This document shows, piece by piece, positions 941 to 39,482 of a stretch of 43,916 nt of DNA; the stretch's first letter is position 1; each line of letters opens with the position of its first letter. Location: assembly GCA_903944895.1 (NCBI GenBank), contig CAJATL010000060.1, forward strand, positions 1 to 43,916, read 5' to 3'. The DNA is from an uncultured Bacteroidota bacterium. Its GTDB lineage: Bacteria; Bacteroidota; Bacteroidia; Bacteroidales; 4484-276. Below the pieces are notes generated by a model that was not told the DNA's origin, searched no databases, and saw only the letters and a program-made list of their open reading frames with translations. The translations under genes and the position numbers were made by a program.

Positions 941-1181
941 ATAAAATCTCAAATCTCAAATCACAAATCTCAAATCACAAATGGCAAAGCGCTCTGCGCT
1001 AAGCGCTATGCGCTGAGCGACTTTCACAAATCTCAAATCCCAAATCTCAAATCTCAATCTTCAATCTCAAATCACATAGGGCAGAGCGCTCTGCGCTAAG
1101 CGCTGAGCGACTTTCACAAATCCCAAATTCCAAATCTCAATCTTCAATCGTAAAATCTTCAATCCTAAATCCTAAATCAGC
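941..1181. repeat. Low-complexity intergenic word array with two copies of a GC-rich module
   Basis: The DNA is built from degenerate iterations of CAAATCTCAAAT/CAAATCACAAAT. Interspersed are two copies of a GC-rich module (about 984-1030 and 1083-1120) containing GCGCTCTGCGCTAAGCGCT and then GAGCGACTTTCACAAATC. The 3' part changes to TCTTCAATC and CCTAAATC words. No coding frame fits. It separates the convergent radical SAM and permease genes. Similar DNA with other words occurs at several other intergenic sites in this window. Confidence 0.75.
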
Positions 1182-20282: not shown

Positions 20283-20287
20283 TTAAT

Positions 20288-20400
20288 GGAAAATTAGTCA
20301 ATTCGACAATTTGATAATTCGACAATTGGGAAATTCGGCAATTCGACAATTCGATAATTCGATAATTCGACAATTGGGAAATTGGGAAATCCGAACCTGG
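20288..20400. repeat. Low-complexity array of CAATTCGACAATT-type words
   Basis: About ten degenerate iterations of a 9-11 bp word (AATTCGACAATTCGATAATT, AATTGGGAAATT) occupy the space upstream of the O-methyltransferase start. The same word family reappears 14 kb away at about 34070-34200, upstream of dnaB. No coding frame fits. Confidence 0.75.
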
Positions 20401-24467: not shown

Positions 24468-25730
24468 CTACGTTTTTTGTTTTTTCTTTTTTGCTGCCGG
24501 GAATAAAACATTATTCAAAATCAACCGGTAGCCGGGCGAATTTGGGAAAAGATTAAGGTCGGTGGTAGGATCTCCAACCAAATGGCGATAATCTTCTGGG
24601 TCGTGGCCTCCCAGAAAAGTAAAAGTACCGTTTCCGTATTCGCCGTGAACATAGCGTGCTTCGTCGGCAGACTTAAATTCGCCCATCACCAGCACATTCG
24701 ACTTAACGTACTTTTTGTTAAAAGCCGTTGTCTGTCCCATAAATCCCTTAATTACCTGCATGTGGTTCTGGCAAAGCATGGTTGGCACCGGATCCCATTT
24801 TGCAGAATAATCAAAAAGTGTAAAGAAATCATTCTTTTCATTGATTGTTTTAGGCCTGGTTTCGGTAACATCAATGGTCGAAACTTCGTATTGATAAGGA
24901 TTTGAGACAATTGAAAAATTGGAGAAGGCAAAACAGTTTTCGAAATTCAGTTTTTCATTTGCGTTGGGATCTGGTGGATCGCCGTCGAACATTACATCGC
25001 ATATATCGTGGCCCTCGGCGGCAAGTGAGAGGTCAAAACTATCGGGTGCCGAACACATCGAAAATAAATATCCGCCACCGGTTACAAAATCCCTGATTTT
25101 TTTGGCAACAGCAAGTTTCAAATCCGAAACCTTGTCGAAACCCAGCAAACGGGCATTTTCTTCGCTGATTCTTACATCTTCCTGATACCAGGCCGTATTT
25201 TTGAACGACATCCAGAATTTGCCGTATTGTCCTGTAAAATCCTCATGATGAAGGTGAAGCCAGTCGTACATCGGCAGCAAACCTTGCATGAGTTCCTGGT
25301 CGTAAACAACGTCGTAAGGAATCTCGGCATAAGTGAGCGCCAGGGTTACGGCATCATCCCACGGCAGCTTATTCTTGGGCGAATAAACGGCAATCTTAGG
25401 TGCCTTTTGCAGTTTCACTTCATCCTGGTTGACCTCGGGATTGGAGATTTCCTGGATCACAGCAGCAGCCTGCACATCGGCAAGTATTTCGTACGAAACG
25501 CCGCGGATGATACATTCGTTTTCGATGTCTTTGTGAAACTGAATCATGAAACTGCCGCCACGGTAGTTGAGCAGCCAGCTCACCTCGACGTCTCTTTCGA
25601 GCACCCAGTAAGCAATGCCGTAGGCTTTGAGGTGATTTTTCTGGGTTTCATCCATCTGAATGAGCACGTAGGCTGCATGACTTGACAAAATGGTAAGTGA
25701 AAATATGAAAATGAGGAAAAGTCGCTTCAT
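24468..25730 (-). CDS. Secreted protein of the type labelled asparagine synthetase B in Bacteroidota
   Basis: A 420-residue protein with a signal peptide (MKRLFLIFIFSLTILSSHA). The first block, QMDETQKNHLKAYGIAYWVL then WLLNYRGGSF, and the later YDWLHLHHEDFTGQYGKF, are what I remember from Bacteroidota proteins automatically named asparagine synthetase B. No Ntn glutaminase (N-terminal Cys) or ATP-pyrophosphatase motif is visible, so that name is probably wrong. The middle (KIAVYSPKN, VTGGGYLFSMCSAPDS, FLGGHDPED) looks like a class I glutamine-amidotransferase or ThuA-like fold with a putative nucleophile in SMCSA. It probably acts in the periplasm or on the surface. The substrate is unknown. 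It ends in a basic AAKKKKQKT tail. Confidence 0.72.
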   Translation of the reverse strand: MKRLFLIFIFSLTILSSHAAYVLIQMDETQKNHLKAYGIAYWVLERDVEVSWLLNYRGGSFMIQFHKDIENECIIRGVSYEILADVQAAAVIQEISNPEVNQDEVKLQKAPKIAVYSPKNKLPWDDAVTLALTYAEIPYDVVYDQELMQGLLPMYDWLHLHHEDFTGQYGKFWMSFKNTAWYQEDVRISEENARLLGFDKVSDLKLAVAKKIRDFVTGGGYLFSMCSAPDSFDLSLAAEGHDICDVMFDGDPPDPNANEKLNFENCFAFSNFSIVSNPYQYEVSTIDVTETRPKTINEKNDFFTLFDYSAKWDPVPTMLCQNHMQVIKGFMGQTTAFNKKYVKSNVLVMGEFKSADEARYVHGEYGNGTFTFLGGHDPEDYRHLVGDPTTDLNLFPNSPGYRLILNNVLFPAAKKKKQKT

Positions 25731-25814
25731 TGCTGATGTTTGTTTTGTTTAAAAGTATAATAATGGAAAGCGGGCTAAATTATTGCTTTAATCGCTGTTA
25801 AGAAAATTTAAAGG

Positions 25815-25961
25815 GATGATTTGGAATAGAACGCGGATGACGCGGATTGGAACGCGGATGATTTGGAATGGAACGCGGATGATTTGGAATAGAACGCGGA
25901 TGATTTGGAATAGAACGCGGATGATTTGGAATAGAACGCGGATGACGCGGATTGGGCGGAT
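25815..25961. repeat. Tandem array of 7 units, 21-bp period
   Basis: Seven contiguous 21-bp units, with starts at 25815, 25836, 25857, 25878, 25899, 25920 and 25941. The unit is GATGATTTGGAATAGAAC plus GCG, and the second and last units are variants with GATGACGCGGATTGG. There are no indels. The last unit runs into GGCGGATTAACGCTGATT, related to the larger repeats at 27704-28142. Confidence 0.9.
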
Positions 25962-26060
25962 TAACGCTGATTTTATATTGTAATAATGCCGCCTATTTGA
26001 AGCATTAAAAGAAGAATTTGAAGACTTGGTTTAGGAGTTTGCAGATTTGAATCACATTGG

Positions 26061-26711
26061 TTCGCAAATCAATCTCAAGGGTTCGCAATTGAATCTCTTG
26101 GCATCGCCATTGAATCTCTTCTCATCGTAATTAAATCTCTTCTCATCACAATTGAATCTCAATAGATCGCAATTGAATCTCTTGGCATCGCAATTGAATC
26201 TCTTCTTATCGAAACTGAATCTCTTCTTATCGCAAATCAATCTCTTCTAATCGCATTTGAATCTCTTCTCATCGCAATTGATTCTCTTCTTATCGCAATT
26301 CATTCTCTTCTTATCACAATTGAATCTCTTCTCATCATAACTGAATCTCTTCTTATCGCAATACTATCTCTTCTTATCGCAAATCAATCTCTTCTTATCT
26401 CAATTGAATCTCTTCTTATCGCAATTCATTCTCTTCTTATCACAACTCAATCTCCATGGTTCGCAATTGAATCTCTTCTCATTACAATTAAATCTCTTCT
26501 CATCACAATTCAATCTCAATGGTTCGCAATTAAAACTCTTAGCATCACAATTGAATTTCTTCTTATCGCAAACCAATCTCAATGGTTCGCAATTCAATCT
26601 CAAAAGATCGCAATTCAATCTCTTGTCATCGCAATTGAATCTCTTCTTATCGTAATACAATCTCTTCTTATCGCAATTCAATCTTAATGATTTGCAATTG
26701 AATATTTGGAG
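26061..26711. repeat. Tandem array of 31 units, exact 21-bp period
   Basis: 31 contiguous units of 21 bp occupy 651 bp without one insertion or deletion; a degenerate extra unit may precede. Each unit is a conserved ATCGCAATTGAATCTC part and a variable 5-base cassette (TTCTT, TTCTC, TTGGC, AATGG, AATAG, AAGGG, CATGG, AAAAG, TTAGC). When the cassette ends in GG the next unit begins with T instead of A. Several frames are largely open because the unit length is 7 codons, but stops occur in 3 units of the best leftward frame and 4 units of the best rightward frame, so it is not called coding. Confidence 0.93.
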
Positions 26712-26735
26712 ATTTAAAAAAAAGTTGTACCTTTC
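26705..26735 (+). promoter_or_regulatory. Promoter of the gene after the 21-bp array
   Basis: A TTTG -33 box (26705-26708) lies inside the last 21-bp unit. A TACCTTTC near-consensus -7 box (26728-26735) follows after 19 bp. The leader to the ATG at 26788 is about 45 bases. Confidence 0.6.
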
Positions 26736-26787
26736 GGCGTGTTTTTAAATCGATAATTCATTTATTCATTATTAAAATCTAAAAATC

Positions 26788-27693
26788 ATGACAAATTATC
26801 AGGAGAGTAAACTAAGCATGTATCTGGCTACTCGTGATTTTATGACGGCCAACAGTACCATTATGACGACTTTGCCCAATTTTGCGGCTAATCAGACGGC
26901 GTTTCAGGGGGCTATTACGCAGATTCAAGCGAGTAGTACGTTGCAGGTTTTTGATAAAACGGGGATTGCGGCTAATAAGGGGGGGGCGAAAAAAACGCTT
27001 ATCGGGCTTGCCGTTGATACGGCGCGGAAAGTGACGGCTTATGCGAAACTGAACAATAATCAGACGTTGCTGGCGGAGGTTAATTACAGTGAATCGGAGC
27101 TTAAAAGGTTTCCGGATACTACGTTGCGGGATGCTGCTCAGGGTATTTACGACCGGGCACAGTCGAACTTAGCTGCATTAGCGACTTACGGAATAACGGC
27201 TGCTTCGCAGACGGCTTTGCAGAATGCGATTACGGCGTATAATACGGAGGTTCCGAAACCCCGCTTAGGGATTACGGAACGGAAACAGGCTACGATGTTG
27301 CTGGCTTCGCTGTTTAAGACTGCCGACGGGGCTTTGGATAATATTGATGTTACGGTGGAGATTGTTCGGAATACACAACCGAATTTTTATAATGGTTATA
27401 AAACGGCGCGGAAAATTGTGGTGACGGGTGCGGGTAGTCTGGCGGTGAAATGCGTGGTTACTGAGGTGGCAACGGGGAATCCATTGCCGGTGGCTACGGT
27501 GAAGTTTGTGCTGGAAGGGGCGCTGGTGCTGACCAAAAAGACTGCGGCAAAGGGTGGTTTTGTGGTGAAGACGCTGGCAGCAGGGACGTATGTGGTTACG
27601 GCAAGTAAACCGGGTTATAAGGAGGAGGTTTTACAGCTTTATCTGAGTGAGGGTGAAATGAAGGAGCTGGTGTTTAAGATGGAGGGGGTGTGA
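26788..27693 (+). CDS. Unknown protein with C-terminal carboxypeptidase-regulatory-like domain
   Basis: A 301-residue protein with no signal peptide. Residues 1-200 are mostly helical (YQESKLSMYLATRDFMTAN; LAVDTARKVTAYAKLNNNQTL; LFKTADGALDNIDVTVEIVR) and match nothing I know. Residues about 212-300 form a beta-sandwich of the carboxypeptidase-regulatory/PEGA kind: VVTEVATGNPLPVATVKFV, GGFVVKTLAAGTYVVTASKPGY, and a final ELVFKMEGV. Codon use is distinct, rich in GCG, ACG and GGG codons including an 8-G run near 26981, unlike the AT-rich neighbours. It lies between the two 21-bp arrays and the 150-bp repeats. The function is unknown; the helical part may bind a partner or assemble. Confidence 0.75.
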   Translation: MTNYQESKLSMYLATRDFMTANSTIMTTLPNFAANQTAFQGAITQIQASSTLQVFDKTGIAANKGGAKKTLIGLAVDTARKVTAYAKLNNNQTLLAEVNYSESELKRFPDTTLRDAAQGIYDRAQSNLAALATYGITAASQTALQNAITAYNTEVPKPRLGITERKQATMLLASLFKTADGALDNIDVTVEIVRNTQPNFYNGYKTARKIVVTGAGSLAVKCVVTEVATGNPLPVATVKFVLEGALVLTKKTAAKGGFVVKTLAAGTYVVTASKPGYKEEVLQLYLSEGEMKELVFKMEGV

Positions 27694-27703
27694 GGTTTTT
27701 TTT

Positions 27704-28142
27704 GGAACGCGGATCCCGATAGCTATCGGGACGGATTGGGCGGATTGGCGCGGATTAGATGTTTGGATAATGTCGCCTCGACGAGGCTTTTAAAGGTGGG
27801 TTGGGGGTGTTTGCTACCATAATGTCGCGCCTACGGTGCTTGAAGGTGTAATAGAACGCGGATGACGCGGATTGGGCGGATTGGCGCGGATTTATGAAGC
27901 GTCATCTGTGTTTTGATAATGTAGCCTCGATGAGGCTTTTAAAGGAGGGTTGGGGGTGGTTGCTACCATAATGACGCGCTGTCGGCGCTTGGGGGGTGAA
28001 ATAGAACGCGGATGACGCGGATTGGGCGGATTTACGCAGATTTATGAAGCGTCATCTGTGTTTTGATAATGTCGCCTCGATGAGGCTTTTAAAGGTGGGT
28101 TGGGGGTGATTGCTACCATAATTTCGCACTGAAGGCGCTGGG
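27704..28142. repeat. Three tandem repeats of about 150 bp
   Basis: Copies begin near 27704, 27853 and 28003. Each has AACGCGGATGACGCGGATTG then GGCGGATT, a GCCTCGAYGAGGC dyad followed by TTTTAAAGG, GGGTTGGGGGTG, and TTGCTACCATAAT, ending in a variable GCGCY..GCGCT hairpin. The first copy carries an inserted TCCCGATAGCTATCGGGA palindrome (27714-27731) in place of the GATGACG segment. The opening phrase is shared with the 7-unit array upstream of the gene. Confidence 0.88.
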
Positions 28143-28265
28143 GGAAAAAGGGTTCGGAGATATTTTCATGCCTTTTTTGAGAGGATTGAGATCAAGGAGG
28201 AGGAGGTATTTATGAAGCGGGAATAGCAATGCAGGAATGAGATTACAGTTAATAAAAAATGTACT

Positions 28266-28299
28266 AAAAAGGGCTTCTCCTAATTTTGAAAAGCCCTTT
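28266..28299 (-). terminator. Hairpin terminator of the coiled-coil gene
   Basis: On the minus strand AAAGGGCTT pairs with AAGCCCTTT around a 14-nt loop, and the stem runs into a T run. It is 26 bases after the stop codon at 28325. Confidence 0.8.
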
Positions 28300-28324
28300 A
28301 GCAACGTCTTAATTCATCATTGGT

Positions 28325-30028
28325 CTAATCATCATCATCGTCATTTCTTCGTTGTTCTTCTTCATAATCGGATTTTGCTCCGTCTGGAATGCTTTGAATT
28401 TGCTGAAAGGAATTAAAATTCTGTATTAAAAGTGCATCAGCCTCAAATGAAATCTCAAAAGACCATTCTTTATAGTTCATATAGACACCTTGGTTTAAAA
28501 TAAATCCCGACTTGGTGTAACCGCTAAAAATCTCACAGTTCTTTTGAAAACCATCTTTTGTATAGGTTAATGCTAATGTTAAATCGTCACTCATTATTTT
28601 ACTCTGCCAGGCTATAATTTTAGCATAAATTCCATTATTTAAGTTTAAGTAGAAAACATTATTGTGGTTTTTTAAAACAAAAGTACTTTTTAGTGCATTT
28701 TTTAGGGAACAAAAAACAGGAAATAAAACATCAATTTCGGCTGTTTCGATTGTATTTTCCTGGTATCTGCGGCAGAGACTATTGCCTGATTTATGTTTTA
28801 ATTCGTGACGAATTTGAGCAAATTTGGGCTTAAAAAAGTCAAAACTTTGGTAAACAGCAAATATTAAAGCTGAATTTATCTCTTGTTTGAAAATATTGTT
28901 TAATCCCTTTTTCCATTCAAGGGTGCCGAATAATTCATATTTATTGTAAATTTCGAAAAACAGGACGTTCAAGTTTTCTTTAGCCTCCACAAATCTATAT
29001 TTCTCATAGGAAAAAACCACAATTTCATGCAAAAGGAACCGGGTTAATGAATTTAGCGCTGATAGTTCATTTTCGATATTAAACAGGATGATTTTGTTGA
29101 CAAAGGTTTCCTTAGAACTTTCATTTTCAATTATTTTATTCTCATTTTCAGTTTTTTTATTTGAGAGATTTATTTTTTGAATTTCGATTTCATATTTTTT
29201 CTTGTTCAGTTCTATTAAACTATCATCTAATCTCTTTTTATTTTCATTAAATTTAAACGGAATTGCTTCTTTCTCATTAAGTAAGTTTACAATTTGGCTT
29301 TTGTATGGTTTTTTTTCTTTTAATACAGTTAGTTTATTGATTTCATCTTCAATTTCATCAATTCTTTTTAAGTTTTCACTTTCAATTGCCGGTAAATTAT
29401 CAATCAAATTTTTTATTTCGGTAAACTCTTGGTCAAGGTTTTCCAAATTTTGGTTATGCTCTTCGATGCTGGTGGCTATTAAATCTATTTCATCCGAGAG
29501 TTTTTTTTGCGTATTATCAAATGATTTTAATTCCTTCAATTTATATGCTTCATAATTTCTTATGATCTCAAAATTATCAAGTGCCCAAATCCTAAAATTC
29601 TTTAGATCAGCAGAATCTTCTCTGAAATAATAGTCATGATTCTTTAAAAATACTGAATTAAATATCTCATTATTAATCTTGGAAATAAATTGCTCCCACA
29701 CGTAATAATTATTGTTAAGTTCATTTAATTCTTTCGTTATTTCCGCTATTTTGATAGCATCTTCGCGGTTTTCTCGAAAATGATATGAAATCTTACTTTC
29801 ACTAAAAAGCTCTTGCATCATGGCATCATTAAGATGGAAATAAATAATATCATATTTTTCGTGTAATACTTTTAAAACTTTGTTGACATCAATTTTTGGC
29901 TCATCTGATTCGTGGTAAATAAAGTAGGGATGCTTCCCAAAATAAAATTCATCAATTGAAAATTCACGGAATTTATCAATTAAAAAGGACTTCATTTCGA
30001 TAAATGAAATAGGTTCTGATTTTTTCAT
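28325..30028 (-). CDS. Large coiled-coil protein of unknown function
   Basis: A 567-residue, AT-rich gene. There is no signal peptide. The N-terminal 130 residues are globular and aromatic-rich (FSIDEFYFGKHPYFIYHE, YDIIYFHLNDAMMQEL). Residues about 160-315 form a long coiled coil (KKLSDEIDLIATSIEEHNQN, IDEIEDEINKLTVLKEKK, LSNKKTENENKIIENES). A C-terminal globular domain follows (HELKHKSGNSLCRRYQE, ILNQGVYMNYKEWSFEISF). The tail ends in RRNDDDDD. I do not recognise a family. The globular/coiled-coil/globular layout resembles SMC-like or phage-defence scaffold proteins, but there is no Walker motif. Low GC and isolation next to repeats suggest transfer. Confidence 0.75.
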   Translation of the reverse strand: MKKSEPISFIEMKSFLIDKFREFSIDEFYFGKHPYFIYHESDEPKIDVNKVLKVLHEKYDIIYFHLNDAMMQELFSESKISYHFRENREDAIKIAEITKELNELNNNYYVWEQFISKINNEIFNSVFLKNHDYYFREDSADLKNFRIWALDNFEIIRNYEAYKLKELKSFDNTQKKLSDEIDLIATSIEEHNQNLENLDQEFTEIKNLIDNLPAIESENLKRIDEIEDEINKLTVLKEKKPYKSQIVNLLNEKEAIPFKFNENKKRLDDSLIELNKKKYEIEIQKINLSNKKTENENKIIENESSKETFVNKIILFNIENELSALNSLTRFLLHEIVVFSYEKYRFVEAKENLNVLFFEIYNKYELFGTLEWKKGLNNIFKQEINSALIFAVYQSFDFFKPKFAQIRHELKHKSGNSLCRRYQENTIETAEIDVLFPVFCSLKNALKSTFVLKNHNNVFYLNLNNGIYAKIIAWQSKIMSDDLTLALTYTKDGFQKNCEIFSGYTKSGFILNQGVYMNYKEWSFEISFEADALLIQNFNSFQQIQSIPDGAKSDYEEEQRRNDDDDD

Positions 30029-34034: not shown

Positions 34035-34350
34035 GGAAATGGAAAGAAGGAAGATTGGAAAAATGTGGCAATTCGGCAATTCGACAATTCGACAATGGAA
34101 GAATGGAAAGATGGAAGAATGGAAAAATTCGACAATTTGATAATTCGACAATGAGAAGAATGGAAGGATGGAATAATTCGACAATTCGACGATTCGACGA
34201 TTGGAATGATGGAATGATGGAAGTATGGAATGGCTGCACTCTTTGTTATGCGCTCCTCGCTTTGCGCTTTGCCAAATGAAGGTTTTGGGTTTTGATATTT
34301 GGTTTTGGTTTTTTGGATTTTTGGATTTTGATTTTTGTAATTTGAATTTT
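34035..34350. repeat. Compound low-complexity intergenic array
   Basis: The left half (34035-34240) mixes GGAAGAATGGAAAGATGG words with AATTCGACAATTCGACAATT words, the latter also present at 20288-20400. A short GC-richer piece (34235-34275) has TTATGCGCTCCTCGCTTTGC, reminiscent of the GCGCT module at 984-1120. The right part (34278-34350) is GGTTTTGGTTTTTTGG-like. No coding frame is supported. It separates divergent dnaB and the amidohydrolase. Confidence 0.75.
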
Positions 34351-34366
34351 GAAATTCCTACTTTTG
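34334..34366 (+). promoter_or_regulatory. Promoter of the M20 amidohydrolase
   Basis: TTTG (34334-34337) and TACTTTTG (34359-34366), matching TAnnTTTG, are 21 bp apart. The ATG is 19 bases beyond. The -33 box is supplied by the T/G-rich end of the low-complexity array. Confidence 0.55.
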
Positions 34367-39356: not shown

Positions 39357-39417
39357 TATTACATTTTTTTATCAGGTGGCAAAAATAGGTTTTTTAAAAA
39401 GATGGGTGGGTGAAATA

Positions 39418-39482
39418 TCAAATCACAAATTTCAAATCATCAATCCTAAATCTGAAATCCTAAATCTGCTAACTCGTATTTT
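39418..39482. repeat. CAAATC/CCTAAATC word array with fossil permease tail
   Basis: AAATCACAAATTTCAAATC and CCTAAATC words like those at 941-1181. The last 24 bases (39459-39482) match 1171-1194 at 22 positions, including GCTWACTCGTATTTT, which at 1182-1194 is the 3' coding end (KYE) of the FtsX-type permease. Here no permease gene follows. Confidence 0.7.

Follow-up and report, generated by a model that had tools for sequence, protein, structure and literature searches.

Tandem arrays with a helical period upstream of orphan gene families in Bacteroidota may represent an undescribed kind of protein-binding DNA platform

Plasmid partition centromeres such as those bound by ParR or TubR are arrays of direct repeats upstream of a promoter that have a private specificity and are occupied cooperatively along one face. 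Direct repeats with two-turn spacing on one helical face also make up the operators of LytTR or OmpR-type regulators. Within the Bacteroidetes, Porphyromonas gingivalis carries BrickBuilt, a single 23-bp sequence at 19 copies per genome, in a MITE with inverted-repeat ends (PMC4596501). Here, we analyse a 43,916-nt stretch of DNA from an uncultured Bacteroidota bacterium (contig CAJATL010000060.1; hereafter the window), in which a long array of 21-bp units precedes an orphan gene of an unnamed family (F1), together with the arrays upstream of F1 homologues and of two other gene families. The same unit at many genomic sites, as in BrickBuilt, was not found: a piece of the window unit is essentially confined to a single place, and the other F1 arrays are unrelated to one another apart from those of orthologues and some relatives. 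We found no description of such arrays in the literature searched, which had few subscription papers in scope and preprints outside it.

The window array and its surroundings

The features of the window to which we refer are the following.

24468 to 25730, minus strand: conserved left-flank gene, with a match in 12 of 12 family genomes
25814 to 25945, plus strand: second, shorter 21-bp array of 6.3 copies (GGATGATTTGGAATAGAACGC), with GGAACGCGGATGACGCGGATT-type words
26062 to 26712, plus strand: 21-bp array of 31 units, consensus TCGCAATTGAATCTCTTCTTA, its first and last units degenerate
26705 to 26708, plus strand: TTTG, candidate -33 box of a promoter-like match, inside the last, degenerate unit (26692-26712)
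26728 to 26735, plus strand: TACCTTTC, candidate -7 box, TANNTTTG-like, in the spacing TTTG-N19-TACCTTTC
26788 to 27693, plus strand: F1 family gene, 301 aa, with a CarboxypepD_reg C-domain at residues 222-298
27760 to 28144, plus strand: 2.6 copies of a 150-bp repeat containing hairpin-like words, with sequence like it after the array of a same-genus genome
32355 to 34001, minus strand: dnaB, bordering on the right the insert in which the array lies

An earlier reading made from the letters alone (the sequence-only reading) had described an indel-free array of 31 units with a strict 21-bp period, and in-register cutting bears this out: over 651 positions the 31 units hold 113 mismatches against the consensus, zero indels and zero phase shifts (the gapped alignment of TRF gives 28.7 copies at 26083-26684, with 2% indels). 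Self-identity of the array is 0.76, 0.72 and 0.78 at lags of 21, 42 and 63, and 0.20-0.44 at the remaining lags from 15 to 69. Columns 1-2, 5-6 and 10-15 of the unit are near-invariant and columns 3-4, 7-9 and 16-21 variable, with most variation at 9 and 16-21, so that the proposed division into a conserved and a variable part stands, and the variable cassette, put at five bases, is closer to six columns. When a 17-base piece of the unit was compared, with up to two mismatches, with the 7.17-Mb genome of origin, it matched the array and a single site with two mismatches on another contig, and no Rfam family matched window positions 25600-28400 at gathering score. The shorter array at 25814-25945 is probably separate from the array at 26062-26712; its GGAACGCGGATGACGCGGATT-type words recur elsewhere in the window. 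GGAACGCGGATGACGCGGATT words also accompany the 150-bp repeats and their hairpin-like words (GCCTCnACGAGGC, CTACGG) at window positions 27700-28150 and at L056:1170-1340, and these repeats look REP-like by eye. Other intergenic word arrays occupy window positions 944-1176, 20287-20383, 34078-34351 and 39413-39468 (AAATCTC of 7 bp, CAATTCGA of 8 bp and others), and relatives carry intergenic arrays of the AATGATTC and CTTATCGCATT types.

The candidate boxes were assigned from the Bacteroidota promoter consensus, TTTG / TANNTTTG. The match at 26705-26735 agrees at 9 of 10 positions (shuffled mean 7.9) and is the best in the 400 bp before the 26788 gene, and the two candidate boxes lie within the 18-21 bp spacing. 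A TTTG in the final unit, 19 bases ahead of TACCTTTC and before this gene, is thus present as had been claimed, at 26705-26708 and 26728. The N-part of the encoded protein has no noteworthy family match and is predicted, in a poor model, to be helical; comparison with solved structures yielded convincing relatives for the C-domain only, and the single-sequence structure model (pLDDT 36) was set aside as too poor for use.

Comparison with relatives places the array in an insert. In seven of ten other family genomes, dnaB is found 75-182 bp upstream of the 24468-25730 orthologue; the stretch examined from the remaining three contained no dnaB, and none of the ten stretches has an array (best lag-21 identity 0.40-0.52). 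Because the two genes are adjacent in relatives, the array and the orphan gene are part of an insert between them, which measures 6.6 kb in the window genome (G000) and 1.6 kb in the same-genus genome G001. In the latter, contig C230 (apparently CAIYZW010000230.1) carries 11 units (consensus TCGCAATTGAATCTCTTGAGT) at the same position as the window array, adjoining an orthologue of the 24468-25730 gene that is 92% identical over the part present. Sequence resembling the window 150-bp repeat, a 151-aa open reading frame (ORF) and dnaB follow the array. The period is the same and the variable end is altered, and with 31 and 11 units in two genomes of one genus, copy number differs at a constant 21-bp period, in line with the check that the sequence-only reading had proposed. 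No F1 gene was found on C230, so the array does not need the gene. Misassembly of the window array is unlikely, both because the same-genus genome holds 11 like units at the same place and because arrays of the 21/42-bp type are also present in a single-contig genome.

Array occurrence across gene families and genomes

F1, the family of the 26788 gene, has a helical N-part and often a carboxypeptidase-regulatory-like C-domain. A 16-member profile matched 67 of 393 genomes of the order (E ≤ 1e-10) and, at E ≤ 1e-15, 14 of 395 genomes of the phylum, own genome counted; the C-domain may account for some of the weaker matches. We inspected 98 F1 loci, a set of 80 and a further 18, and dropped four with less than 250 bp upstream; the 80 were hand-picked from the matches listed, mostly by E-value and with at most six candidates scored per genome, and form a non-exhaustive set. 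An array was called where an 84-nt stretch within 1500 bp upstream had at least 60% identity at a lag of 20-22 or 41-44. By this measure, arrays precede 78 of the 94 remaining loci, in 37 of 40 genomes, with periods of 20-22 or 41-44. The sequence-only reading had proposed looking upstream of homologues, and there the same kind of array was found, its period kept and its sequence changed; homologues lacking arrays, which it had named as speaking against itself, make up 16 of the 94 loci, against 78 with an array. All four F1 genes found in the window genome have arrays, as do 13 of the 18 F1 loci from outside the order (including two partial genes, L264 and L268).

Under a 600-bp limit and lags of 21, 22, 42 and 44, arrays were found at 67 of 93 F1 loci, compared with 0 of 89 neighbour genes from the same loci (upstream windows overlapping the F1 upstream region being excluded) and 5 of 179 sampled genes. 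These last came from five genomes (G000, G278, G060, G308 and G001), four of the loci (L129-L132) having been chosen for a pattern hit, and three of the five positives are 7-bp repeats that score at 21 too. Background 1500-nt windows from two genomes had arrays in 5 of 392 cases. F1 genes stand in largely unrelated neighbourhoods: when neighbours were compared mutually (BLAST E ≤ 1e-6, short flanks), no gene family recurred beyond 4 of the 40 genomes, and a general partner gene for F1 was not seen in the same comparison. Plasmid records and viral contigs gave no match to the window protein, nor phage records to one homologue.

Two further families share the association. Arrays lie upstream of 11 of 12 DUF6261 loci, with periods of 41 (five), 42 (five) and 43 bp (one), and of 14 of 16 loci of HTH_26 regulators (two of 18 had less than 300 bp upstream; 14 of 16 holds for an identity cut of 0.58, and 13 of 16 for 0.60). 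Two of the HTH_26 arrays (L304 and L311) are common to F1 genes; in G157, two HTH_26 genes are divergent from F1 genes with an array in between. F1 and DUF6261 are not significantly homologous (hhalign Prob 0.8, E 0.066), and the literature searched on DUF6261 gave nothing on the subject of arrays. Neither HTH_26 nor DUF6261 is a likely general reader of arrays, since the window genome yields no hit to DUF6261 and, at 1e-8, none to the HTH_26 query.

The density of arrays varies widely among genomes. In the single-contig genome G204, twenty segments sampled at even intervals (L275-L294, 400 kb in all) contained 25 arrays of 21 or 41-43 bp, or about one per 16 kb, far above the samples from G157 or G000. 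Their neighbours include two F1 genes, three small HTH_26 regulators, one DUF6261 gene and many other genes (a third F1 match, at 1e-7, is a 659-aa protein). Nine of the 25 arrays lie between convergent ORFs, and most stand beside genes of none of the three families; the arrays are therefore not always regulatory. In a 400-kb sample of G157 away from known F1 genes, array periods were 7-9, 14, 16, 18 and 28 bp; the sole hit at 21 bp was a 7-bp array that matched at three times its period. Separately, a CAATTGAATCTC-type 21-bp array occurs at a contig end in JAURWL010000080.1 (L071:3511-3664), adjoining an IS21-type gene pair (IstB_IS21); the record is titled as a Dehalococcoidales MAG, and we infer that it is probably a misbinned Bacteroidota contig.

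Promoter-like sites (TTTG-N18-21-TANNTTTG, 25-110 bp before the start) occur at 27 of 95 loci, compared with 6.1 (sd 2.2) under a dinucleotide null. Nineteen loci have both features, and in 18 of them the array precedes the promoter-like site; the window is the one exception, with its candidate -33 box inside the array end. Over these 19 loci, the distance from array end to start codon ranges from about 69 to 710 bp, and array and promoter stand in random helical phase (Rayleigh P about 0.68), so that a fixed phase was rejected. The suggestion that all units face the same side of the helix as the promoter is therefore not supported as a rule.

Unit sequences and conservation with a helical period

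Consensus units mostly differ from locus to locus, those of orthologues and some relatives being alike. Mean array similarity is 0.69 for pairs above 60% protein identity (n = 9 pairs) versus 0.28-0.32 below, and at less than 50% identity array and protein similarity are hardly related (Mantel r = 0.06, P = 0.058). For pairs below 40% protein identity, similarity is 0.288 within a genome versus 0.289 between genomes; a single regulator per genome was discarded as a candidate, same-genome arrays being no more alike than those of different genomes. A faint same-strand likeness (AAATGnCATCT-like) rises above shuffled units: of 1,653 pairs, 23 reach a similarity of at least 0.5 on the same strand, compared with 7 on opposite strands and 4 when shuffled. 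Judging by the changes in a few alignable orthologue pairs, units appear to undergo homogenisation and to be added or removed as a whole. The L200 and L202 arrays differ by 66 bp (3 × 22 bp). In L192 and L194, orthologues from G308 and G228, the units measure 42 and 43 bp, apparently through a 1-bp insertion copied from unit to unit. Neither L184/L185 nor L211/L213 differ in their units inside the array. The gaps in L228/L229, of 16, 7 and 19 bp close to where the array ends, do not correspond to whole units.

Conservation within units follows the helical turn. In 58 F1 arrays with a period of 21 and a length of at least 126 nt, the 10.50-bp component has a power of 0.232 (null 0.0995, sd 0.0117, z = 11.3); the 21-bp component is weaker (z = 4.1) and a 3-bp component is absent (z = −1.7). 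The 10.5-bp harmonic ranks first in 24 arrays and the 21-bp harmonic in 13; in the window array, too, 10.5 bp ranks first. The peak remains with one array per genome (z = 9.1, n = 31). Eleven DUF6261 arrays, from 9 of the 12 loci (three from L344), give z = 6.5 at 10.5 bp and z = 7.9 at the whole 42-bp unit, and the G204 arrays z = 4.9 at 10.5 bp and 3.4 at 42 bp. Conservation along one helical face is thus found in the F1, DUF6261 and G204 arrays; it is weak in eight HTH_26 arrays, with z = 1.8 at 10.5 bp, lower than z = 2.7 at 7 bp. Given a conservation peak at 10.5 bp and none at 3 bp, the arrays appear to be recognised in double-stranded form along a single face of the helix, through contact patches spaced roughly one turn apart. 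Units show no half-site symmetry, direct or inverted. Two other candidate properties were rejected: curvature predicted from wedge parameters is no greater than in column-permuted units (mean z 0.29, median rank 0.63), and a shared base pattern on the conserved face amounts to mild T/A enrichment only.

Coding could give the same spacing, in that 21 nt equal seven codons and the a/d positions of a heptad-repeat peptide would recur every 10.5 nt, and some arrays do have long open frames, for example one on the minus strand of G308 that repeats the heptad LxREMQF. However, open frames number 68 of 348, against a column-permuted null of 60.2 (sd 6.7); 20 of the 58 F1 arrays have none, and these keep the 10.5-bp peak (z = 6.9); the 3-bp signal is absent; and the peak recurs in the DUF6261 arrays, 8 of 11 of which have units of 41 or 43 bp. 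The existence of periods of 22, 41, 43 and 44 means that helical turns, not codons, count. Stop codons (3 to 30 per frame) occur in all six frames of the window array, which refutes coding there. On these sequence comparisons, heptad coding is excluded as the source of the 10.5-nt peak, and we give a coding role for the arrays next to no credence.

Possible functions and comparison with known systems

Taken as sequence patterns, the arrays point to an undescribed kind of protein-binding DNA platform that would form a large class. Our main reading, to which we assign a probability of about one half, is that an array may be a helically phased, double-stranded binding platform, specific to its binder, that is likely to silence or autoregulate the adjacent gene. 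The 21-bp unit would present two helical turns, and the 42-bp version four, with recognition patches about one turn apart on one side, and a cognate protein would coat the array by cooperative side-by-side binding along 200-650 bp. The binder should be array-specific because most loci have a private recognition sequence, and the simplest candidate would be the product of the adjacent gene (F1, DUF6261 or HTH_26). Where a promoter can be named the array lies upstream of it, and once filled it would most likely silence or autoregulate that gene. HTH_26 proteins are DNA-binding by family; to our knowledge, F1 and DUF6261 are not known as DNA-binding, and the non-basic N-part of F1 (median pI 7.8, net charge +1) is a mark against F1 as a candidate binder. 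A bolder extension, which we advance tentatively and consider somewhat improbable, is that F1 and DUF6261 are undescribed sequence-specific DNA-binders coating their own private phased arrays and, with HTH_26, constitute phylum-wide, self-recognising array-binder modules that diverge in specificity like plasmid partition systems.

The sequences themselves show the arrays, their tie to three gene families, the private units, the 10.5-bp conservation, the non-coding nature and the excess of promoter-like sites between array and gene. Protein binding, the identity of the binder and the regulatory outcome are what we infer, and several observations count against this reading: the G204 arrays between convergent genes or beside genes of other families, the G001 array on a contig with no F1 gene, the 16 of 94 bare F1 loci, the unfixed promoter phase and distance, the absent half-site symmetry, the weak Mantel correlation, the weak 10.5-bp peak at HTH_26 genes, the non-unit gaps in L228/L229, the full-unit 42-bp component and the fact that 10.5 bp is the largest harmonic in just 24 of 58 arrays. 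The earlier proposal of a phased platform, as opposed to mere slippage, appears to survive in its platform part, with 10.5-bp conservation and arrays at 78 of 94 loci in its favour, and to fail in the fixed phase relative to the promoter.

Several of the same observations bear on other explanations. The arrays might have an architectural or centromere-like role, with phased sites occupied by a nucleoid, anchoring or segregation protein that influences the adjacent gene only secondarily; the density of about one array per 16 kb in G204, in all gene orientations, fits this, as do the two- or four-turn phasing and the variable distance and phase to promoters. Private sequences that are no more alike within a genome (0.288 vs 0.289) argue against such a role, however, as do the 400-kb sample of G157, with just a 7-bp array at 21 bp, and the 0 of 89 F1 neighbours. 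We consider it possible but rather unlikely; it keeps that standing because arrays lie between convergent genes in G204, because G001 has its array on a contig where no F1 gene was found and because 16 F1 loci are bare. Alternatively, array and orphan gene could move together as a cassette, with the array as the substrate of the moving enzyme. This we find doubtful, since recurring neighbour families reach at most 4 of 40 genomes (BLAST E ≤ 1e-6, short flanks), no plasmid or viral (window protein) or phage (one homologue) match was found and array sequences differ between copies, although F1 neighbourhoods are largely unrelated, the window copy sits within an insert whose two bordering genes are neighbours in 7 of 10 relatives and the L071 array adjoins an IS21-type gene pair.

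Neutral minisatellites, growing by slippage near fast-evolving genes, are harder still to credit. These genomes do hold many other intergenic arrays (7-9, 14 and 16 bp), and unit number does differ between relatives, yet slippage would sit poorly with a period of about 21 or 42 across unrelated sequences, with zero indels beside 113 mismatches in the window array, with 10.5-bp conservation and with gene-family specificity. Should the phased-platform reading be right, a puzzling repeat would become a rule, in which seemingly unrelated orphan families share a helical period and one-sided conservation and little else. It would also provide a way into F1 and DUF6261, both of unknown function, together with a naturally occurring set of cognate DNA sites for a binding protein, and 10.5-bp conservation within units would offer a sequence-only test that may separate bound arrays from neutral minisatellites.

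By analogy, the arrays share two-turn spacing and a single face with LytTR or OmpR-type operators, and would differ from them in having no repeated half-site in their units and roughly 5-30 units rather than a few. They may work like ParR or TubR centromeres, with repeats upstream of a promoter-like site; unlike partition centromeres, they have more units, no partner gene in more than 4 of 40 genomes when neighbours were compared with one another and no F1 plasmid match (window protein). The nearest described repeat that we found is BrickBuilt, which resembles the arrays described here as an intergenic tandem array of about two helical turns with promoter elements in the Bacteroidetes (PMC4596501). 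What sets the present arrays apart from it are units of 21 or 41-44 bp, sequences that mostly change from locus to locus and a tie to gene families.
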